NCBI GenBank assembly: GCA_944324165.1
Contig: CALUVG010000002.1
Span: 1-64,000, forward strand
Reading direction: 5' to 3'
Source of the DNA: Candidatus Gastranaerophilales bacterium
Lineage (GTDB): Bacteria; Cyanobacteriota; Vampirovibrionia; Gastranaerophilales; Gastranaerophilaceae
Length of the DNA stretch: 64,000 bases
This document shows positions 28,694 through 45,582 of this stretch, piece after piece; the stretch's first letter is position 1, and every line of letters starts with the position of its first letter. The translations under genes were made by a program, and so were the position numbers. Below the pieces are notes generated by a model, which ran no database searches, had not been told where the DNA came from, and saw only the letters and a program-made list of their open reading frames with translations.

Positions 28694-29215
28694 TTGAAAA
28701 TTAACGCTTTAAAGTGTCCTTTGGTTAATCAAAACGGATACCATAAAAATATCCTTACCAAAGAACGAATCGGAACACTATTTATTTATCCCATAGATTT
28801 TACCCCTGATGACTGCTTGGCATGTGATGGTTATTTATTGAACATTATCGACTATGAAGATTTGTACAAAGTAATCGGCACGAAGTTTAATAAATCAGGA
28901 GATACCGCAGGCAAATTCAGGATTCCTGATTACAATGTAACCGGAAGATTTCTGCAACCTGGAGCAAATGTCGGAAGTCAGATAGCCGCAGGTTTGCCTA
29001 ATATTACAGGTTGGCTTTCAGATATAAATGCCGGGAATGTTCATTGTGGAGGGGCTTTTTATAACGCTTCTAGTTGCACTCATAAAATGAATAATACAAA
29101 TGCTGTTTCAGGTGGTTGGGGATTTGATGCAGGGTTTAGTAACTCAATATACGGTAAAAGTAATACCGTTCAACCTCCTGCTCAAATCGTTCATATTTGC
29201 ATCAAATATAAGTAA
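28694..29215 (+). CDS. Tail collar domain protein, copy 1
   Basis: A 173-aa protein that starts at TTG 28694 (AAGGAAGAA upstream), supported by the alignment of its MKINALKCP with the starts of its four paralogues. The conserved part is the phage tail collar domain (DFTPDDCLACDGYLL, FRIPDYNVTGRFLQPGANVG); the C-terminal third, IYGKSNTVQPPAQIVHICIKYK-like, is also conserved. Between them is a variable loop (about 110-150, WLSDINAGN...), the probable receptor-contact region. Confidence 0.85.
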   Translation: MKINALKCPLVNQNGYHKNILTKERIGTLFIYPIDFTPDDCLACDGYLLNIIDYEDLYKVIGTKFNKSGDTAGKFRIPDYNVTGRFLQPGANVGSQIAAGLPNITGWLSDINAGNVHCGGAFYNASSCTHKMNNTNAVSGGWGFDAGFSNSIYGKSNTVQPPAQIVHICIKYK

Positions 29216-29221
29216 TAAATA

Positions 29222-29740
29222 ATGGAAATACTCAGCCTTTTAACAAATGAAATAAACCAAAACGGTTATAATTTCAATCTTTTAACTAAAAATAAAATCG
29301 GATTTTTATACATCGCTCCTGTAAACGTAGTACCTGAAGATTGTCTGGCATGTGATGGGTATATCTTGAAAATTGCTGATTACAGAAAACTGCACGCAGT
29401 AATTGGAACAACATTTAATACTGGCTCGGAAGCTTCAGATGAATTTAGAATCCCAGACTATAACATCACCGGAAGATTTTTACAGCCGGGGGCAAACGTA
29501 GGAACTCAAATAGCAGCAGGCTTGCCTAATATTACTGGAGGAAACACCGTTGTAAGCCCATATAATTCAACTCCTTATGGTGCTTTTGCAACTACCTCAG
29601 GAAGTCAAAATATCCATGGTGGCGGCGAATGGTATAGTGTATCCAATTTTAATGCTTCTCGTTCAAGTTCTATATACGGTAAAAGTTCTACGGTTCAACC
29701 TCCATCACAAATAGTTCACGTCTGCATTAAATATAAATAA
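29222..29740 (+). CDS. Tail collar domain protein, copy 2
   Basis: A 172-aa paralogue starting 6 bp after copy 1. Same FRIPDYNITGRFLQPGANVG core and IYGKSSTVQPPSQIVHVC end. The variable insert reads GGNTVVSPYNSTPYGAFATT and is glycine/serine/asparagine rich. No clear RBS precedes the ATG, so translation probably depends on coupling with copy 1. Confidence 0.85.
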   Translation: MEILSLLTNEINQNGYNFNLLTKNKIGFLYIAPVNVVPEDCLACDGYILKIADYRKLHAVIGTTFNTGSEASDEFRIPDYNITGRFLQPGANVGTQIAAGLPNITGGNTVVSPYNSTPYGAFATTSGSQNIHGGGEWYSVSNFNASRSSSIYGKSSTVQPPSQIVHVCIKYK

Positions 29741-29745
29741 AAACA

Positions 29746-30282
29746 ATGAAAATACTTAATTTAACAACAAATGAAGTCAACCAAAACGGCTACAATTTCA
29801 ATATCTTTACAAGGAATAAAATTGGCTTTTTATATATCGCCCCTGTCAATATAGTTCCAGATGATTGTCTGGCTTGTGATGGATATGTTCTAAAAATTGC
29901 TGATTACAAAAAACTTCATGCTGCAATTGGAACAAAATTTAATACCGGCTCGGAATCTTCAGATGAATTTAGGATCCCGGACTATAACGTAACCGGAAGA
30001 TTTTTGCAACCAGGAGCAAATGTTGGAGTCCAAATTGCAGCAGGACTGCCCAATATTACTGGCGGTTGGAATAATGTCGGGGTTGAACCCGGGTACAATT
30101 CAGCTTCCGGAGCATTCTATCAAAATAATATAGGCGGAACTTTCTTTTATCACGCATCCGGACGTGGGGGAAGTGTTGGAGGATTTTACTTTAATGCTTC
30201 TCGCTCAAGTGCTGTTTATGGCAAAAGTTCAACCGTTCAGCCCTCATCACAAATCGTTCACATCTGCATCAAATACAAATAA
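29746..30282 (+). CDS. Tail collar domain protein, copy 3
   Basis: A 178-aa paralogue, the longest of the five, closest to copy 2 in its first 60 residues (NEVNQNGYNFN, IGFLYIAPVN). The variable insert (about 105-150) is extended by glycine-rich sequence (GFYFNASRSS shared in part with copy 2), which suggests recent duplication followed by change confined to the insert. Confidence 0.85.
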   Translation: MKILNLTTNEVNQNGYNFNIFTRNKIGFLYIAPVNIVPDDCLACDGYVLKIADYKKLHAAIGTKFNTGSESSDEFRIPDYNVTGRFLQPGANVGVQIAAGLPNITGGWNNVGVEPGYNSASGAFYQNNIGGTFFYHASGRGGSVGGFYFNASRSSAVYGKSSTVQPSSQIVHICIKYK

Positions 30283-30284
30283 AT

Positions 30285-30785
30285 ATGAAAATCTCTAATT
30301 TAACAACAAACCAGTTAAACCAAAATGGTTATAACAAAAATTCTCAAACACGAGATAAAATCGGTGCTTTATATACATTTCCCATCGATTACACTCCGCA
30401 TGATTGCCTCTCCTGCGAGGGATTTGTCTTAAAAATAGTCGATTATAAAGTCCTTTATTCAATCATTGGCAAAAAATTTAATAAAGGCACTGAAGCTTCC
30501 GATGAATTCAGAATACCGGATTACAACATTACAAAACGATTTCTGCAACCCGGGACGGCGGTCGGAACACTTATTGAGGCAGGACTTCCAACTCACACTC
30601 ATACAATCACAATGAACAGAACGGATAAATCCGGCAATGATACTGATTGCGTTTGGTCTTACGGAGAAAATAGAAACGGAGCGGCTAAAGTTACATCGTC
30701 CGCACCATCAAACGCAATTTATGGAAAGTCATCAACCGTTCAACCACCTTCACAAGTCGTTCATATCTGCATCAAATACAAATAG
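30285..30785 (+). CDS. Tail collar domain protein, copy 4
   Basis: A 166-aa paralogue. It differs from copies 1-3 after the core: the insert carries the THTHTITMNRTDKSGNDTD motif, where the HTH-type histidine pair is typical of collar/fibre tips and can bind metal ions, and ITKRFLQPGTAVG replaces ITGRFLQPGANVG. It begins 2 bp after copy 3. Confidence 0.85.
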   Translation: MKISNLTTNQLNQNGYNKNSQTRDKIGALYTFPIDYTPHDCLSCEGFVLKIVDYKVLYSIIGKKFNKGTEASDEFRIPDYNITKRFLQPGTAVGTLIEAGLPTHTHTITMNRTDKSGNDTDCVWSYGENRNGAAKVTSSAPSNAIYGKSSTVQPPSQVVHICIKYK

Positions 30786-30792
30786 GTAAAAG

Positions 30793-31293
30793 ATGAAATT
30801 AGTTTCTTTAAAAACCAACCCCTTAAATCAAAATAATTACAACAGAAATGCTCTCACCCCTGAATTCATAGGTTCGCTTGTTATTTATCCGGTAGATATT
30901 ACCCCCGAAAAATGTCTTCCCTGCGATGGCTACAAATTAAAAAAGGCTGATTATGCTCAACTTTATGCAGTCATTGGCAATAAATATAATGATGGAAGTG
31001 AGGCTTCAGATGAATTCAGAATTCCAGATTACAACGTAACAGGAAGATTTTTGCAACCCGGTGCAAAGGTTGGAACTCAAATTGCCGCAGGAATCCCGGA
31101 TCATACACATACAGTAGTTGCTCTTTATTGGGATTCTAACGGTATTGTTGAAGAGGGACGTGGAAATCCTGATTTCGGACATCAAAAAACACTTACAACA
31201 AGTAAAGCCTCAGCAAACAATTCCATTTACGGCAAATCAAAAACCGTTCAGCCACCTTCACAAATTGTTCATATTTGCATTCGTTACAAATAA
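30793..31293 (+). CDS. Tail collar domain protein, copy 5
   Basis: A 166-aa paralogue similar to copy 4 in having a DHTHTVVALYWDSNG insert, but with its own N-terminal half (LVIYPVDITPEKCLPCDGY). It ends the array and is followed after 9 bp by the endolysin gene. AGGTAAAAG precedes the ATG. Confidence 0.85.
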   Translation: MKLVSLKTNPLNQNNYNRNALTPEFIGSLVIYPVDITPEKCLPCDGYKLKKADYAQLYAVIGNKYNDGSEASDEFRIPDYNVTGRFLQPGAKVGTQIAAGIPDHTHTVVALYWDSNGIVEEGRGNPDFGHQKTLTTSKASANNSIYGKSKTVQPPSQIVHICIRYK

Positions 31294-37080: not shown

Positions 37081-37104
37081 ACTCTAATGTTTAAACACTA
37101 GAGT
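37081..37104 (-). terminator. Early-operon terminator
   Basis: ACTCTA-N12-TAGAGT, followed on the minus strand by TTTTTC. It sits just after the Mor gene stop (37129), as expected for the end of the Mu-type early/middle transcript. Confidence 0.65.
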
Positions 37105-37128: not shown

Positions 37129-37440
37129 CTATTTATCCGACTTTGGCAAGTTGTACTTTTTGTGGAGATTCTTTTTTATAATTTTATAAATATATCTTTG
37201 AGATAAATCGCATTCAATTGCGAGGCGGTTTACGGTATATTTTCTGCCATCATACTGGCTCATGATATATTTTTCTTTTATCTCACGAAACGGATTTTTC
37301 GGGATACTTACTGTTAATCCAGGCGAGCAGAAAATAAGAGCCAAGGCGGATTTTATGCCGGCAGATTCTGCGATGAACTTCAAGTCATCGTTCGGCATAT
37401 CTTCAGGCTGTATCAAGTCCATCCAAGGCTTGTAATCCAT
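37129..37440 (-). CDS. Mor-family middle transcription activator
   Basis: A 103-aa protein of the Mu Mor/C activator type: an N-terminal dimerisation part (DLIQPEDMPNDDLKFIAESA, IKSALALIF, the SIPKN strand) and a C-terminal helix-turn-helix (RKYTVNRLAIECDLSQRYIY). In Mu, Mor is the last early gene and activates the middle promoter leading to late expression; position and terminator agree. GAGGAG lies 4-9 bp before the ATG. A hammerhead ribozyme cuts the message 49 nt upstream of the ATG. Confidence 0.85.
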   Translation of the reverse strand: MDYKPWMDLIQPEDMPNDDLKFIAESAGIKSALALIFCSPGLTVSIPKNPFREIKEKYIMSQYDGRKYTVNRLAIECDLSQRYIYKIIKKNLHKKYNLPKSDK

Positions 37441-37461: not shown

Positions 37462-37526
37462 GGTCTCATCAGTTAACGCATTACGTTAAGACGGTCAGCT
37501 TGCACTGTTAGCCGACCGTTTCGACC
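37462..37526 (-). ncRNA. Type II hammerhead ribozyme A
   Basis: A 65-nt minus-strand element with all core elements in order: GGTC (stem II strand), GAAA, stem III CGGTCGGCT/AGCTGACCG with loop AACAGTGCA, the cleavage triplet GTC, stem I TTAACG/CGTTAA with loop TAATG, CTGATGA, and GACC (closing stem II). Predicted scissile bond is between 37490 (C) and 37489 (U). It lies between the 89-aa gene and the Mor gene. Stem sequences differ from copy B but every pair is kept. Confidence 0.93.
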
Positions 37527-37529
37527 TTT

Positions 37530-37799
37530 TTAGCCTTTTGCCATTTCTAACTCTTGCTCAAGCTCATCTTCGATTTTTAATTTAGTTTTAAATAATTCAC
37601 TAAGCATAACTTCTTTTGGCTTGACTTCATCAATTAGCTTTGCCATTTGATGTAAGTTGTCAAAAATAACATTGACTTCTTGAGGAGGGGTGCTATGTGC
37701 TTTAATGGCACAATCTGCAATTTTGATTTTTAAATTCTCAATGTCCACCTGATACTCTGTAATTTTTCGTTCTAAAACTAGTAGTGCTGTGTTGCCCAT
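37530..37799 (-). CDS. 89-aa protein flanked by hammerhead ribozymes
   Basis: About 89 aa from the ATG at 37799 (AAAGGAGA upstream; a longer frame would run back into ribozyme B). Mostly helical and acidic, with coiled-coil tendency (LERKITEYQVDIENLKIKI, LFKTKLKIEDELEQELEMAK). No family recognised. The gene exactly fills the 360-nt RNA that the two ribozymes would release, so its message would be separated from GemA-side and Mor-side RNAs. Confidence 0.7.
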   Translation of the reverse strand: MGNTALLVLERKITEYQVDIENLKIKIADCAIKAHSTPPQEVNVIFDNLHQMAKLIDEVKPKEVMLSELFKTKLKIEDELEQELEMAKG

Positions 37800-37821
37800 T
37801 TTTGTCTCCTTTACTTTTATT

Positions 37822-37886
37822 GGTCTCATCAGTTAGAGCCTTACTCTAAGACGAGCCGCTTGCACTGTTAGCAGCTCGTTTCGACC
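37822..37886 (-). ncRNA. Type II hammerhead ribozyme B
   Basis: A 65-nt element with the same layout as copy A: GGTC, GAAA, stem III CGAGCTGCT/AGCGGCTCG, loop AACAGTGCA, GTC, stem I TTAGAG/CTCTAA with loop TAAGG, CTGATGA, GACC. Predicted cut between 37850 (C) and 37849 (U), 50 nt before the ATG of the 89-aa gene. Covarying stems I and III relative to copy A show that the structure is maintained by selection. Confidence 0.93.
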
Positions 37887-37897
37887 TCGTGTAAAAT

Positions 37898-38221
37898 TTA
37901 GTCAGGAGGCATTTTTGCAGGGGTAAGCATATCTTCTAAGTCTCGTTCAATCTTTGATAAGATAGAGATTTGTCCTTCAAGAACCTTGCAATCGATTTCT
38001 CGTTCTTTAGCACAACTCCAGTTATCTTTAACCAGATTCGCATCGGCAAACTTCAATTTTGCATCGTTCAAACGCTCTTCAAGGTCAATTTTTTGATTCC
38101 TGATTAACCCCATCATTGCACATTCTTTAGGATCATCAGAACTGTGAGAAACTTCTCCAAAGAATGCATTTCCCATCATTGGTGACATTGAATCGGTTGT
38201 TTTTTCTGCTGTTAGCATCAT
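37898..38221 (-). CDS. Early-operon protein of unknown function
   Basis: About 107 aa from the ATG at 38221 (AAAGGAGAAAAA upstream; a longer frame starts inside the GemA gene). Met/Ser-rich N-terminus, then helices (MGLIRNQKIDLEERLNDAKL, EISILSKIERDLEDML-like end). Similar charged helical proteins are common in the early regions of Mu-like phages. Followed 11 nt later by ribozyme B. Confidence 0.6.
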   Translation of the reverse strand: MMLTAEKTTDSMSPMMGNAFFGEVSHSSDDPKECAMMGLIRNQKIDLEERLNDAKLKFADANLVKDNWSCAKEREIDCKVLEGQISILSKIERDLEDMLTPAKMPPD

Positions 38222-38246: not shown

Positions 38247-38699
38247 CTACTCAAGTGTGGCCGCACTTTTTTCTTTTAATTTCTTTTTTATTGCCGTTAT
38301 TGCCTGAATAACTTTACAGGCTTTGGCTCTGGTCAAAAACATAATGTCATCGACCTTAAACTTTGATTTTAAAAACTTTCTCAGGGATTTTTTCGCAAAT
38401 TTATCATCATTGAAATAGCAGACATCTCTCCACAAACCTTCAATCATTCTGAGTTGTGCATCAGATGCCATATTTTCTGTGCGATTCAAATCCGCATATT
38501 TTTTCGGCTGTTTAATCCATTTGTTTATAGCTACAGCTTTATCTTCAAGGATATCTACAAAAATTGCCGCTTCAGTAAATGTCAAATCCTTTGATGATGT
38601 AACATCAAAAGACATAAGCATTTCACGATATAAATCGTCATCCATACCTATAACATTTTTTAATGCGTGAATTTTTCTAATCTGAAAAGTCGTAGCCAT
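38247..38699 (-). CDS. GemA/gp16-like regulatory protein (DUF1018)
   Basis: A 150-aa protein with the GemA (Mu gp16, DUF1018) pattern: QIRKIHALKNVIGMDDDLYR, EMLMSFDVTSSKDLT, ASDAQLRMIEGLWRDV, and the C-terminal KVIQAITAIKKK. In Mu, GemA modulates host gene expression and DNA topology. It overlaps the small membrane protein gene by 23 bp. Confidence 0.9.
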   Translation of the reverse strand: MATTFQIRKIHALKNVIGMDDDLYREMLMSFDVTSSKDLTFTEAAIFVDILEDKAVAINKWIKQPKKYADLNRTENMASDAQLRMIEGLWRDVCYFNDDKFAKKSLRKFLKSKFKVDDIMFLTRAKACKVIQAITAIKKKLKEKSAATLE

Positions 38700-38853: not shown

Positions 38854-39732
38854 CTATGCCATTAATAATTTGGAAGTTTGTTTAATCACAGCATCATCGA
38901 CCTCAGCTTTACCGTTGAATTTGGCAATGCTGATACTGTGGGAAATTAAGTGTTCTAATCTTCTGGTATTTCCATCCGAATACTGAAGATATGTTTCAGC
39001 CAGTTTTGTATTCTGTCCGATAGATTCAAGAATTTTTATGACGTCTTGAATTAAAATTTTGTCTATAATTTTTGTAAATTTGACTCTTGAGTACAACTGG
39101 TCATACTGATTGTTGTAACCTTTCAGGTTTTCTAACAGAATTCCTCTACCCACTAAAAGAATACCTACACCTGTTTTATCGTGGATCCGGCGAGTAATTT
39201 CTAAGGCTCTATATGGAAGATTTTCAGCCTCATCAATAATTAAAAGTCTGCCTGATTGGTTTAATTTTCTGACGACTTCATCCATCAAGTCATAAACCGA
39301 ACCCTTACCGGAAAGTCCTAAACGTCTGTGAATTTCCTTGAGAAGAGATTTTGCAGTGTAACCTGAATCGCTCTCAATAAGGATTGAGTCCATAAATTCT
39401 TTGGTATATCTTTTTACGGCAACGGTTTTACCAAGCCCGGCTTTACCCACACAAACTCCGATTTTACCTTGAGTATGGCAAAGTCTGCCGATTTCAGTGA
39501 TATATTTAACCGTTGAAATATCTACAAAAGGCAGGTCGCTGTTGCCGGAACGTTCGTGTTCACGTTGAATAAAATTATTTATAGCATCAGTAATTTTATC
39601 ATTTTTGCCGTTGTAATTACCGTTCATCCACATACTGATTGTAGACTTAGCAATCCCTGTAGCAGTTGAAACGTATGCTATACTGTAATTTTTAGATTCC
39701 ATCAAATCTTTTAATTCGGCTCTAATATCCAT
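38854..39732 (-). CDS. MuB-like transposition ATPase (phage module 1)
   Basis: A 292-aa protein: an N-terminal helix-turn-helix (about 1-60; IAYVSTATGIAKSTISMWM) as in MuB, then an AAA+ domain with Walker A GKAGLGKT (96-103) and Walker B LLIIDEAE (D167, E168), and a C-terminal helical domain. It binds target DNA, delivers it to the transposase and gives target immunity. Overlaps the transposase stop by 11 bp. Not closely related to the ATPase at 42865-43581. Confidence 0.92.
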   Translation of the reverse strand: MDIRAELKDLMESKNYSIAYVSTATGIAKSTISMWMNGNYNGKNDKITDAINNFIQREHERSGNSDLPFVDISTVKYITEIGRLCHTQGKIGVCVGKAGLGKTVAVKRYTKEFMDSILIESDSGYTAKSLLKEIHRRLGLSGKGSVYDLMDEVVRKLNQSGRLLIIDEAENLPYRALEITRRIHDKTGVGILLVGRGILLENLKGYNNQYDQLYSRVKFTKIIDKILIQDVIKILESIGQNTKLAETYLQYSDGNTRRLEHLISHSISIAKFNGKAEVDDAVIKQTSKLLMA

Positions 39733-41665
39733 TGGCGACTCCTTTTAATTCTTGCTCAAGGATTTTGTCGGTTTCATATAGATAAAGCGGTTTTTCCTGC
39801 GGTTTGTTTTCATCTAAAAGCATCGACAAATCCTGCCGACCAAAAGCATCCATCTCCTTACTTTTGCGAATAACCTTGTCCATATTTGTATTTGCAATTC
39901 GTGAAACTTTTGGTTTAATTTCTTTTTCAACGCTTGCGTATGCGGCTTTATAATTTGCACATTTTTCTTCAAGGCTAATCTCACGAGTTTGTTTAATATA
40001 TGATTTTGCAATCTTCAAACTGCGTTTTTTGATAGCCATTGCATCTTTGAAAGCTTCTTTTGAAATTTCGTCTGCGTGAAGTGCCGCAACGGCTTTGACC
40101 GCCGTAACCTTACCGATAAAGGCATTATTGTCGGCTCTGAATACCCACGCAACCTTGAAATTTTGAATATCTCTGCGTAAGTAGACTTTCAGACCTGTTT
40201 TTGAAATCATCCAATCTGCCCAATAGGTAATACCCAGTTCATTATCTTTAATGCCATTTCGTCTTATAGTGTAATTTTTAGAAGTCCTTGTGCAGAATAA
40301 TTTCAAAGCATCGGATTCTACTTTTATAACTTCAGCACATTCCTGATTAAAGAGTTGATCAGGAGATAAGCCCTCGTGGTTTTTACCACGAGACGGGCGT
40401 TTATTTAAAACATTAATCACAAAATCATCAAAGACTTCTTTAAATACATCAAACGGAATAATTTTTCCTGCTTTAATCTCTTTTGCCAGTTTTTCCGGAC
40501 GTTCAACAACATTACCTCCCCTGTAACCAATACAATGTTTTGAAAGTAATTCTTTAATCTTTAAAAAATCTCTTTCAATTGGTTTTGTCTGAGCATTATA
40601 TGGTAAAGCAAAATTTGCTTTGACATTTAATTCTTCAAGCATACAAGTCGTTTTGAACTCATCTGCTTCAATTTTAAATTTTCGTCCGCCGGCAAAATCT
40701 TTAGAACGATAATCTTTACCGTTATCAATAATCACATCTTTTGGCAAACCGTATTTTTCTACAGCATAATAGAAAGACTGGAAAATGTGATCTGAATTTG
40801 GATGTCCGCACTGAAGAATCCAACCGAGCCATTTGCCTGATTTGTAATCTCTCCAAGCAGTAACCCAAGGAAAAACAACGCTGCCGTCTGAATTCAGACA
40901 GGCAACGTCTATTTGAGCGTGATCTGAAACCCACGCTTCTCCGCAAATTACAGTAGAATAGTCTCTATCAATGTAATTGCCGTATTTCCTATTCCAAGCA
41001 GATTCCCCATATCTCGCTAAATAAATACTTTGCTCAGGAACTTCACGTTCCAAACGTCTTTTAAAAGTTGCGTGACAAGGAAATTCATATCTACTAATTC
41101 CATATTTACGCATTGCATATCCTAGGGTTTGCTCCCAACAACTCCGTAGAGATGGTGCACCCTCAACTAAATAAAGATTTTTAAAATATTCAAAATAACA
41201 ATCTTCAATTATTGTTCTACCTGAATTATTTCCGTATCTTGATAATAAACCATTTATTCCACTAGCAAAGTATCTATTTCTCATTCTAATTAAGGATGAA
41301 TAAGACGTATGGTTATCAGGATTATTTTTATTCCAATTTTCGATGAACAGTTTTAAGGCTCTGCCTCTCAAACAAAGACTTTTTTTTATAACATCGATGT
41401 ATTTGTCTGCCTGAATTCGTGACCATAAAGGAGCTTCAGAATATTTTTTATTATCAGATCCGTTGTTAATTTTTTTTGATATTGATAAAGATGAATAACG
41501 AATAAAAATTTGTTTTATATTATCTTTTGCTTCAATTTTATAAATAAAATCACCTTTATAGCAGCGATTTTTTATTGTCTTTTCTTTGACATTCAAGAGA
41601 TTACACGCTTCTTGAACAGAAATCCAAGTCGGAATATTTGATTTTACTTGCTGGGTTTCATTCAT
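39722..41665 (-). CDS. MuA-like DDE transposase (phage module 1)
   Basis: A 647-aa transposase. The N-terminal winged-helix part (WISVQEACNLLNVKEKTIKN) is the MuA domain-I type, then further DNA-binding helices, then an RNase H-like core with D248 (WVSDHAQ), D314 (VIIDNGKDY) and E364 (PIERDF), and a MuA C-terminal beta-barrel and basic tail. It catalyses replicative transposition of the prophage, with MuB. The start follows the small HTH gene stop with an 8-bp overlap. Confidence 0.95.
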   Translation of the reverse strand: MNETQQVKSNIPTWISVQEACNLLNVKEKTIKNRCYKGDFIYKIEAKDNIKQIFIRYSSLSISKKINNGSDNKKYSEAPLWSRIQADKYIDVIKKSLCLRGRALKLFIENWNKNNPDNHTSYSSLIRMRNRYFASGINGLLSRYGNNSGRTIIEDCYFEYFKNLYLVEGAPSLRSCWEQTLGYAMRKYGISRYEFPCHATFKRRLEREVPEQSIYLARYGESAWNRKYGNYIDRDYSTVICGEAWVSDHAQIDVACLNSDGSVVFPWVTAWRDYKSGKWLGWILQCGHPNSDHIFQSFYYAVEKYGLPKDVIIDNGKDYRSKDFAGGRKFKIEADEFKTTCMLEELNVKANFALPYNAQTKPIERDFLKIKELLSKHCIGYRGGNVVERPEKLAKEIKAGKIIPFDVFKEVFDDFVINVLNKRPSRGKNHEGLSPDQLFNQECAEVIKVESDALKLFCTRTSKNYTIRRNGIKDNELGITYWADWMISKTGLKVYLRRDIQNFKVAWVFRADNNAFIGKVTAVKAVAALHADEISKEAFKDAMAIKKRSLKIAKSYIKQTREISLEEKCANYKAAYASVEKEIKPKVSRIANTNMDKVIRKSKEMDAFGRQDLSMLLDENKPQEKPLYLYETDKILEQELKGVANGY

Positions 41666-42230: not shown

Positions 42231-42905
42231 TTAAGCAAATAATAATGTATTTATTCCTGAATATCTTTCAGAAAAATCCTTTCCATATTTCCATAACTCT
42301 TCAGCCAGGTGTAAATGAAATCTATGAGCAAATGAGCGGCTTAAAACTTTTCTATAACTTCTCAAATAGATGTTTTTTATTTCTAAACGTTCGTCATTAG
42401 TATGTTTACGTGCATCTTTAGATATTAAGTATTTATCAGATACAAATAATTTGTGTTCATATAAATACAGATAAACTTTTGTATTCATATAAATCCTTTC
42501 TTGCGGTATTTTAGGGGATTTTTCAAAGTACTTAACAAGTTCGTTCTTTTGTTGTTCATAAATTATTGTCCTAAAATATTGATAAAAATTATTCATAACA
42601 TGTTTTGAAAAACCGAATAAATCAATCATTTTTAAGACTTCTATATCAATACAAAAACCTTTTATTATGTAATCTATATCCGTTTTGGAATGATGTTGAA
42701 AAAATTGCGGAAGTCGTTGTTTGTTACAACCTTGTTCTTTATTATACAAATATATATTGTCTTTAAAAATAAGTTTTCCCTCTTGCACAAGAGTTAAAAG
42801 AAGTAACTCTAATACAGATTCGTCAATATCTTCTGCAATAGTTGAAATTTCATCAAGTGTAAATTTATCCAACCTTCTGCAAAGCTTTAATACTCGTTCT
42901 TTCAT
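42231..42905 (-). CDS. Unknown third gene of the second transposition module
   Basis: A 224-aa protein. Residues 1-60 resemble a winged helix (KFTLDEISTIAEDIDESVLE, then a KLIFKDNIYLY hairpin). The rest is helical and basic (RLEIKNIYLRSYRKVLSRSF, AEELWKYGKDFSERYSG) without zinc ligands, so TniQ/TnsD is not supported. The start overlaps the ATPase gene by 41 bp with AAAGGA upstream: tight coupling suggests a transposition or target-selection partner. No family recognised. Confidence 0.6.
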   Translation of the reverse strand: MKERVLKLCRRLDKFTLDEISTIAEDIDESVLELLLLTLVQEGKLIFKDNIYLYNKEQGCNKQRLPQFFQHHSKTDIDYIIKGFCIDIEVLKMIDLFGFSKHVMNNFYQYFRTIIYEQQKNELVKYFEKSPKIPQERIYMNTKVYLYLYEHKLFVSDKYLISKDARKHTNDERLEIKNIYLRSYRKVLSRSFAHRFHLHLAEELWKYGKDFSERYSGINTLLFA

Positions 42906-43581
42906 TGAGCAGTCCTTTCAATGTGTATTCGTCTATCTCATCAATTTTGTTTGTTTCCGACAGTTTTTCTATTTTATTAATTAACTTAACCAGTTGTCTG
43001 AATTGGTTTGTCCTTGTTGCAAGGTAGTTTATTCCATTATCTGTAAAATTGAGTTCTGTCAAGTTTTCAATAATTTCTCTAATATCTTCAGCATTAAACT
43101 GTTCAAATCTCAAAGTTTTGTACAACCTATCGACTAAATGCGGATATCTTGCGAGTTTTTTATCTGCCGCTCCCATTCCGACTAAAACTATCGGGCAGGT
43201 GGTTTTATCGTGCAAATCCCTCAAAGTTTCAACCGTATGCTTTTCAATCAAATAATCAATCTCATCAACAATAATAATCTTAGGATTCTGCCTTAAATAA
43301 TTTTCTATGAGTTCAAAAGTTTCCTGCGTGTGCCAGTAAGGTTCTTCTCCAAGCTCCTCCGCAATTTCAGATAATAGCCATCTGCTCGTCATTCCCTGTG
43401 TTGCCCGAACATATACAGAATCGTTTTTATCTGCCCACCACTGGATTGTCTGAGATTTTCCAAGCCCATGGTCGCCGTAAACTAATGCAAGTTTTGGAAT
43501 GTTCGGCGGAAGTTTCTGCAACTCATCCATCAAAGCCACAAACCGCTTGACGTTTTTTGTTTTAATAAATGTTTTCTTCAT
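42865..43581 (-). CDS. MuB/TnsC-type ATPase (module 2)
   Basis: A 238-aa AAA+ ATPase: Walker A GDHGLGKS (36-43), Walker B IIIVDEID (D106, E107), then CPIVLVGMGAADKKL and a C-terminal helical lid. It lacks the N-terminal HTH of the phage MuB at 38854-39732. It starts 3 bp after the transposase stop and presumably activates that transposase. Confidence 0.9.
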   Translation of the reverse strand: MKKTFIKTKNVKRFVALMDELQKLPPNIPKLALVYGDHGLGKSQTIQWWADKNDSVYVRATQGMTSRWLLSEIAEELGEEPYWHTQETFELIENYLRQNPKIIIVDEIDYLIEKHTVETLRDLHDKTTCPIVLVGMGAADKKLARYPHLVDRLYKTLRFEQFNAEDIREIIENLTELNFTDNGINYLATRTNQFRQLVKLINKIEKLSETNKIDEIDEYTLKGLLNERTSIKALQKVG

Positions 43582-43584
43582 AGA

Positions 43585-45573
43585 TTAATCTCCATATAAG
43601 TTGTAATATTCATCGCTTTTTATATAATCCGCAAGCCACTTTCTATCCTGCGGATTTGTTGTTCCGTTTGTCATAAGCCACTCGTATTTTTCATAATTTG
43701 AATTAAACATTGGTACGTTCATCTGCCGTTCACGAGGGGTTTGTTTGTGTTCTCTCTTTGGCTTTGGTTGTTCTTCTATTTCTAAAACAGGTTCCGGTTC
43801 AATTTCTAAAACTTGAAGTTCATCTTTAGTGAATGTCTTTTTAATTTGTTTAACAAGCCGGCTTTTAATTTTCTGCTGCCTTTGATACTGCTGCTTGTAT
43901 TCTTCCATATCTTTAACTGTGCCGAGAACATTTGCCATCGGGTGAACTTTCTGAACCCTATGTGCCACGCATAAAAATTCACCTTTCATTGAATAAACTT
44001 GAACCTTTGAAAGGTCAAATAAACTGTAACGGACATAAACCTTATCCCGAAGTCCAAGAATAACATCACTCCTGTAATGCATTCCGAGGAACGTTATTCC
44101 ATGCTTGTTTATTGTCCTTGATTCTGTTTTCATCATTAAATAATCAAGTGCAGATTTATTAATATCTTGTTTCCGAACAGAGTTTAATACCTCTTGAATG
44201 CTCCTTGAACGGTCATTAGGACAGGCTTTTTGATTCCTGTATTCCAGCCAGGCATTAATATATTTAATAGTCTCTTGTACTGTCGGAATATTTCCTTTTG
44301 TTTGTTGATTATGAAGTTGTAAATGCAGTTTTTCATTTCTATTCATCCACGCAGGACGGTTTTCAATTGAAGTACCGATATAACTTGGCATAAGTTTTTC
44401 AAATTCTTCCTGAAAATCTAAGAAAAATCTTTCTATAACTTTTGCACGTGCATTGTATGGTTTAGCAAAAACGGAGTGAATACCTAAATTGGCATACACT
44501 CCGTTAAAACACTCCTCGTCAAAATCACAAGATTGAAAATACTTTGCCTTAAATGCTTTACCATTATCCTGATAAACTACTTTCGGGATAATACCTAAAT
44601 TAATAATTGCATTTCTAAGGGCAGAGGCTATGCACTGAGTATTTTCAGTCATCATAATTTCATAGCCGACAAATGCTGTTGATTTCCAGTCTAAAAAACC
44701 GACCAAAGTTGCTCTGGTCGGTTTTCCTGTAAACGGATTTATTACTTGAAAGTTTAGAACGTGTCCGTCTGCGATTAACACATCTCCAACTTCTATTTTA
44801 CTTATATCTCTTTCAATATATGGTTCAACCTTATCGTGGTAGGCTTTCATACCCTCACGTTTTAGCACCCACTCCGCATAATGGTTTCTTCTGAAATGCT
44901 CCGCAAACCTTTTGAAAGTTATATTACTCGGCAGAGCATCTTCATCATATCCTTTTTTAATCAACACTTGTTTTGCAAGCCTGATTGCCGTATTGTACCC
45001 GAATTTATTCTGATGAAGTAAAAGAGCAAGCAGAACTTTTTTCATATTGTCATCTAAAATACTGTTATATTCACCCTGTTTTGTTATTTTGTATTGAGGT
45101 ATTAGGGATTCTGCGTTGCCTGTTTTCTTGTAGGCTTGTATGTATCTTCTTAATGTTCCGATTGAAATACGGCCCAGAAATTCGTATGCTTTTGGTAAAT
45201 ACAATCCAGAATTATACAGGTCTAAAAATTCAGCATCAGCCTCTTTTATACTCGGATATTTATTTCTGTGTTCAAGTGCGGCTTTAACAATGTTCATTCT
45301 GTGATTTGCCGTCTGTCTTGCTTTATCTGTAATAATAGGCGGTTTGTAATTCAACGGAACAATTGCCGTTGATTTTGTTTCGCATTCCCGAAGTTTTTGT
45401 TGTAATTCAGGTTCTAAACTTGAAAACAATATTTCGTATGAGATACCGCCGTTAACTTTGACTTCCCTTGAAATATATTTGCTTTCAGGTTTGTTGATTT
45501 CCATTCGGATTGAACGAGTGCTCTTTAACCCCTTAGCCTGTGCGATTTCTTTAATAGTTACATATTCATTCAT
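43585..45573 (-). CDS. MuA-like DDE transposase (module 2)
   Basis: About 662 aa from the ATG at 45573 (a GTG nine bases earlier is possible). MuA-type N-terminal HTH (EYVTIKEIAQAKGLKSTRSI), helical DNA-binding region, core with D269 (LIADGH), D336 (VVYQDNGKA) and E381 (VIERFF), then a beta-barrel and a Lys/Glu/Pro-rich tail that likely contacts the ATPase. Clearly divergent from the phage transposase at 39722-41665, so not a recent duplication. The repeated sites at 45604-45970 lie directly upstream. Confidence 0.93.
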   Translation of the reverse strand: MNEYVTIKEIAQAKGLKSTRSIRMEINKPESKYISREVKVNGGISYEILFSSLEPELQQKLRECETKSTAIVPLNYKPPIITDKARQTANHRMNIVKAALEHRNKYPSIKEADAEFLDLYNSGLYLPKAYEFLGRISIGTLRRYIQAYKKTGNAESLIPQYKITKQGEYNSILDDNMKKVLLALLLHQNKFGYNTAIRLAKQVLIKKGYDEDALPSNITFKRFAEHFRRNHYAEWVLKREGMKAYHDKVEPYIERDISKIEVGDVLIADGHVLNFQVINPFTGKPTRATLVGFLDWKSTAFVGYEIMMTENTQCIASALRNAIINLGIIPKVVYQDNGKAFKAKYFQSCDFDEECFNGVYANLGIHSVFAKPYNARAKVIERFFLDFQEEFEKLMPSYIGTSIENRPAWMNRNEKLHLQLHNQQTKGNIPTVQETIKYINAWLEYRNQKACPNDRSRSIQEVLNSVRKQDINKSALDYLMMKTESRTINKHGITFLGMHYRSDVILGLRDKVYVRYSLFDLSKVQVYSMKGEFLCVAHRVQKVHPMANVLGTVKDMEEYKQQYQRQQKIKSRLVKQIKKTFTKDELQVLEIEPEPVLEIEEQPKPKREHKQTPRERQMNVPMFNSNYEKYEWLMTNGTTNPQDRKWLADYIKSDEYYNLYGD

Positions 45574-45582
45574 GGTACACAC

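Follow-up and report, generated by a model that had tools for sequence, protein, structure and literature searches.

Type II hammerhead motifs at the mor junction of Mu-like phages: a position-locked element and a variable gene cassette

Introduction

Natural type II hammerhead ribozymes were reported by Perreault in 2011, together with prophage clusters arranged around single, non-constant genes (PMC3088659). The tandem arrays cleave in vitro, and that of A. tumefaciens also in E. coli; processing into single-gene mRNAs was already proposed for tandem prophage hammerheads, whereas circular or spliced products were sought and none was detected. In the same work, 4 of 18 consensus-like hammerheads were inactive in vitro (PMC3088659). 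A 2023 article restates that hammerhead and twister ribozymes are most strongly associated with Mu-like phage genes, and gives the reason as unknown (PMC10085705).

The locus described here lies in the window, that is, the whole stretch of 64,000 nucleotides analysed. Two hammerheads, A and B, flank an individual gene in the window prophage, and the likeness to the Perreault clusters (PMC3088659) extends to the type II order, the tandem placement, the location on the coding strand and the bracketing of single genes, which vary there and here. In contrast to those clusters, the motif is locked before mor across one Mu-like lineage, closely related phages permit a comparison of the cargo slot, and cleavage is predicted. 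The resemblance to the Mu-like-associated ribozymes (PMC10085705) consists in proximity to Mu-like phage genes and to one another, with the difference that within this lineage the association is narrowed to a single junction, the one before mor. The tandem-pair arrangement is not new: the splitting of a phage message by a hammerhead pair, which the sequence-only reading had singled out as interesting, had been described (PMC3088659), and the Mu-like association was known (PMC10085705). The locking to mor and the allele evidence of exchange at hammerhead seams are, to our knowledge, additional to what is known.

A further natural counterpart is HHphage of haloviruses HF1 and HF2, a hammerhead that precedes the start of an early phage gene by 13 nt, for which a transcript 5' end was mapped close to the cut; it differs from the window elements in having a halovirus variant core and in preceding a helicase gene instead of mor (PMC3088659).

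Results and Discussion

Genomic context

All early genes are on the minus strand, where the succession runs MuA-like, MuB-like, GemA, 107-aa gene, hammerhead A, 89-aa gene, hammerhead B and mor (Table 1). The Mu-like phage context assumed in the sequence-only reading is thus borne out, with MuA, MuB, GemA and Mor all encoded on one strand. Consensus scans of the minus strand revealed no convincing promoter upstream of mor, and the terminator-like hairpin downstream of this gene is likely, judging from its sequence, to mark the end of the early transcript. A search of the locus against a phage collection returned no match.

Table 1. Features of the early region and of the two hammerheads in the window.
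Feature	Position	Strand	Remarks
Terminator-like hairpin and T-run	37081..37104	minus	downstream of mor; consensus match only
mor	37129..37440	minus	Mor/late transcription activator family; 21 nt downstream of hammerhead B
Hammerhead B, type II	37462..37526	minus	follows the stop of the 89-aa gene and precedes mor
Predicted cut of hammerhead B	after C37490		new 5' end 37489, ~49 nt upstream of the mor start
89-aa "cargo" gene	37530..37799	minus	bracketed by A and B
Hammerhead A, type II	37822..37886	minus	separates the 107-aa gene from the 89-aa gene
Predicted cut of hammerhead A	after C37850	minus	new 5' end 37849
107-aa gene	37898..38221	minus	directly upstream of hammerhead A
GemA (Mu gp16-like) early gene	38247..38699	minus	PF06252, E 1.1e-17
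MuB-like transposition ATPase	38854..39732	minus	
MuA-like transposase	39722..41665	minus	

Two other regions of the window deserve mention. A second transposase set, at 42231-45582 (-), adjoins the Mu-like early operon on its upstream side and shares its strand; it comprises an rve/Mu-transpos_C protein (43585-45582) and a TniB/AAA protein (42865-43581), and is possibly a second mobile element. At 28694-31293 (+), five successive paralogous ORFs of 166-178 aa share a C-terminal SSTVQPPSQIVHICIKYK-like motif, and the array resembles tandem phage tail-tip or collar proteins.

Anatomy and fold of the two elements

Direct reading and a pattern parse agree that A and B, each 65 nt long, carry every core nucleotide of a type II hammerhead. 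On the minus strand the layout is GGTC-GAA-stem III-C17-stem I-CTGATGA-GACC, and the order GAA-III-H-I-CUGAUGA is that of type II. Stem III comprises 9-10 bp, with A15.1...U16.1 included, and is closed by the loop TAACAGTGCAA; stem I comprises 6-7 bp, and stem II (GGTC/GACC) is identical in the two copies. Overall, 54 of the 65 positions are identical between A and B. Every pair is preserved, as the sequence-only reading had stated, and the coordinates and anatomy that it gave for both elements proved correct. Its predicted cut sites and 360-nt product also hold as sequence predictions: the positions of the two C17 residues place the cuts 360 nt apart, so a double cut would free a 360-nt piece with the 89-aa ORF entirely inside.

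The strict pattern occurs just twice within the 64-kb window, as A and B, and the same pattern applied to 100 dinucleotide shuffles gave two loose matches and no strong one. Each element alone folds into the expected three-way junction (z = -3.3 and -3.5), and both the MFE and the centroid folds contain three helices, with stems I and III closed by loops and stem II open. Covariance model R1 assigns 95.5 and 92.1 bits to the two copies, which the model itself includes; most of the related matches are not in the model.

Conservation and covariation among relatives

The covariance model for relatives was built from nine elements. It finds a match in 49 of 383 genomes in a survey of the host family and in 29 of 386 genomes in a sample of the phylum, 28 of the latter belonging to the host family and one lying elsewhere in the same order. 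The core does not vary across the 57 distinct elements that were parsed (CTGATGA or CTGACGA, GAA, A-U), and position 17 is C, A or U, never G. In an alignment of 61 distinct rows fitted to the model, 99.3% of the cells are paired and two-sided changes occur at 15 of 19 pairs; a smaller MAFFT alignment shows the same picture, with two-sided changes at 10 of 19. The covariation score is 0.499, against 0.155 for shuffled and at most 0.10 for slid alignments. Stems I, II and III all covary among relatives, with stem II near-fixed within the lineage of the window phage. Collectively, core elements, fold and covariation agree at the sequence level, and the type II identity given to A and B by the sequence-only reading is confirmed: both are real hammerhead motifs.

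Stem III has a median length of 10 bp in the mor-linked lineage, compared with 6 bp in 196 hammerheads from other viral contigs. The 11-nt loop TAACAGTGCAA was considered as a binding site and rejected, because close relatives swap it for short loops, and in one, L426:2860-2979, the stem III loop is extended by a long insert. Most matches of the loop-based collection scans are attributable to chance. Loss of the core is clear in one case among 60 distinct elements, L412:2681-2744, where both CTGATGA and stem II are gone and an apparently decayed hammerhead precedes a distant mor.

Other variants were noted. In L424, L435, L405, L399 and L432 an extra U separates the CTGATGA core from stem II (CTGATGATGACC). 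The phage of L402 is nearly identical to that of the window, and its hammerhead A has the entire stem III hairpin of 37822-37886 replaced by another fully paired hairpin, with stem I and the flanks unchanged; this difference suggests recombination on the scale of a single hairpin.

Tertiary contacts

A pseudoknot between loop I and the 3' tail of stem II has been described for type II hammerheads (PMC3088659); it is common in the type, not strictly defining. In copy B a 5-bp pairing (TAATG/CATTA) is possible, while copy A offers none. Over 57 relatives the observed pairing amounts to 2.88, compared with 2.84 after shuffling, which is no signal, and a generic set of 176 viral type II elements (L001-L120), itself selected for GGTC/GACC, shows no excess of pseudoknot pairing either. 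The Watson-Crick pseudoknot, promising in copy B, thus finds no support in either set. All 57 elements have an A immediately before stem II, against a frequency of about 32% for A nearby, and in all 57 loop I opens with U; the same A and U are found together in 166 of the 176 distinct other viral type II elements. The invariant A and U suggest another tertiary contact, from loop I to stem II.

The hammerhead before mor

A hammerhead lies no more than 200 nt upstream of 34 of the 37 mor homologues that score 85 bits or more; 17 of these homologues have two. Most of the hammerheads begin about 0-10 nt past the preceding stop codon and end 14-32 nt before the mor start, in a layout table in which some start codons chosen by the script are too early and yield negative gaps. 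Divergent Mor phages keep the hammerhead before mor despite a different upstream gene. By sequence reading, we take this upstream gene to be Gam-like. The hammerhead before mor is, on this comparative sequence evidence, a position-locked part of the junction, and probably its ancestral part. The constant feature is accordingly the single hammerhead before mor and not, as the sequence-only reading had it, the pair; the upstream hammerhead and its gene are variable.

The element is not essential, since three of the 37 close mor genes lack one and the L412 copy has decayed; in one of the three, G180, a different hairpin is found instead. More distant mor homologues are mostly without a hammerhead, and those that were read have promoter-like sequences upstream or stand in other gene contexts. 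Weak, related matches occur in L417, L419 and L425 in a different conserved context in which no mor was detected, with ORFs of about 133, 272 and 107-119 aa before the match and of 73 and 105 aa after it.

Hammerhead A and the cargo gene form a variable cassette

The 53 usable loci comprise 36 with one hammerhead and 17 with two. Mapping the pair label onto a Mor tree requires about 11 changes, of which nine or more fall on well-supported branches; the count is slightly inflated by the "single" row L427, which is cut by a contig end. The nature of the change is readily apparent from close pairs of phages. The Mor proteins of L400 (single) and L393 (pair) are identical and their flanks 97-98% identical; what sets the two apart is a hammerhead together with a gene, and the junction falls at GGTCGAAAC. 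The same kind of difference separates L416 from the window phage. Between L388 and L389 the hammerheads are 100% and the flanks 98-99% identical, the cargo is only about 51% identical, and the sequences agree again from the first base of hammerhead B onward. Among close pairs as a whole, the flanks are 85-100% identical, mostly above 90%; some relatives lack the cargo, and comparisons of those that have it give either 97-100% or 52-54% identity. The cassette junctions fall on the first nucleotides of the hammerhead. Because flanks and hammerheads are alike while the cargo is divergent or absent, the cargo must have been exchanged, lost or gained within a constant frame. Although MAG assembly could distort the single-versus-pair calls, the alleles recur in independent genomes. 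These sequence comparisons show hammerhead A and the ~90-aa gene to be a cassette that is gained, lost or replaced, with its seams at the hammerheads.

Family searches with the 89-aa cargo protein gave no usable match. Both this protein and the 107-aa protein are predicted to be two-helix hairpins, and a profile comparison between them reaches 55% probability (P ~1e-4), with reversed controls below 1%. The 107-aa gene is thus possibly a paralogue of the cargo gene, and on the basis of this comparison the cassette may have originated by duplication of a gene-plus-hammerhead unit, a reading offered as suggestive only.

Cargo gain, loss and replacement bounded by hammerheads would also be expected if the motif were kept mainly as a DNA recombination handle for cargo swaps, with RNA cleavage incidental. 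The pattern of conservation makes this unlikely: compensated changes in stems I and III lower DNA homology, while scattered catalytic nucleotides remain invariant, the core being clearly lost only in the L412 element; furthermore, the motif persists before mor as a single copy.

The paired loci also recall plant and animal retrozymes, in which tandem hammerheads a few hundred nt apart yield circles (PMC7761336), and the main role might be a 360-nt circular RNA with the small gene, closed by self-religation or by a ligase. The excised piece would derive its 5' end from A (stem I and the CTGATGA core) and its 3' end from B (stem III and C17); because stem II is identical in A and B, it would hold a full hammerhead set and could fold as a single hammerhead. 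The match of stem II is, however, uninformative, since this stem is almost fixed in the lineage. Most relatives have a single hammerhead before mor, unable to excise a circle, and RtcB ligase was not found in the host assembly (99.96% complete), whereas 9 of 14 control genomes were positive. In contrast to retrozymes, the window locus is a type II arrangement in a phage operon, the hammerhead is usually single among the relatives, and no retrotransposon features were found. Perreault, moreover, detected no circular or spliced products from tandem hammerheads (PMC3088659). Since most relatives are single and the host is without RtcB, a circular RNA as the main role is disfavoured and we hold it to be very unlikely.

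Proposed mechanism and meaning

The reading that we prefer, with a probability of roughly 0.7, is that the ribozymes cut the early transcript co-transcriptionally into hairpin-capped pieces and that the motif is in addition a gene-exchange seam. Each hammerhead would fold as RNA polymerase passes and cut itself after C17; B would then split mor from the remaining early message and A the small gene from the preceding genes. The released pieces would begin with a 5'-OH and, directly behind it, the stem I hairpin, a short way before the Shine-Dalgarno site, and the pieces ending at a cut would bear the stem III hairpin at the 3' end, which would protect the upstream pieces. Such hairpin bookends might give each piece a stability and a level of translation that do not depend on the neighbouring pieces, and so insulate mor expression, by analogy with RiboJ, with which transcript increases roughly twofold and protein by a factor of two to ten (PMC6206723). 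RiboJ likewise places a hammerhead just before a ribosome-binding site, with a defined 5' end and a hairpin; unlike the window hammerheads, which are natural, type II and within an operon, it is engineered from satellite RNA, has an added hairpin and sits after a promoter, so that the likeness is one of anatomy alone. Because the cassette boundaries lie at the hammerheads, the motif would also serve as an exchange seam, by design or as a by-product, and newly arrived genes would be processed separately.

The strict placement between the upstream stop codon and the mor Shine-Dalgarno site, and a stem III loop that is highly variable (with the long insert in L426), could instead point to a regulated switch, in which a ligand, a protein or upstream translation modulates cleavage before mor and thereby times the early-to-middle transition. 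A conserved sensor domain was not found, however, and the apical loop shrinks to a few nt in close relatives. The predicted accessibility of the Shine-Dalgarno site barely shifts on cutting, from 0.55 to 0.64 unpaired, a small mean effect for which unmasking of this site by cleavage was also discarded as a candidate. A switch of this kind appears distinctly unlikely to us.

Extending co-transcriptional cutting and seam function to the Mu-like phages of this bacterial family in general, hammerheads may act as a two-level modular joint before mor, combining RNA processing with a DNA seam; this generalization is tentative, and we would sooner expect it to fail than to hold. If it is true, a ribozyme-framed gene slot replaces the frame of promoter and terminator, and an inserted gene becomes at once its own message. 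The phages provide near-isogenic natural sets in which the mor hammerhead is nearly always present and the second hammerhead with its gene is present, absent or exchanged, which makes it testable whether cutting sets the level or timing of Mor and whether the hammerhead is an exchange joint. Furthermore, the lineage bears on why bacterial hammerheads cluster near Mu-like phage genes (PMC10085705).

Detection by Rfam and hammerhead-rich viral contigs

An Rfam search, which the sequence-only reading had named as a check, listed no hammerhead in the window at the gathering score or at E <= 10. Neither A nor B reaches the gathering score of RF02276, which is a detection threshold and not a biological feature of the family. 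At the control locus L076 the pattern parser recognizes nine hammerheads and Rfam none at the gathering score; since these nine are also missed, the negative result is uninformative and is attributable to the library model and not to the window. A large set of phage hammerheads escapes the Rfam hammerhead models.

The nine type II hammerheads of L076 lie on a viral contig within ~4 kb (L076:9152-13225, minus strand). Another viral contig, L113, carries six type II hammerheads within ~4 kb (L113:1346-4499, minus strand), which mostly sit between a stop codon and the following start.
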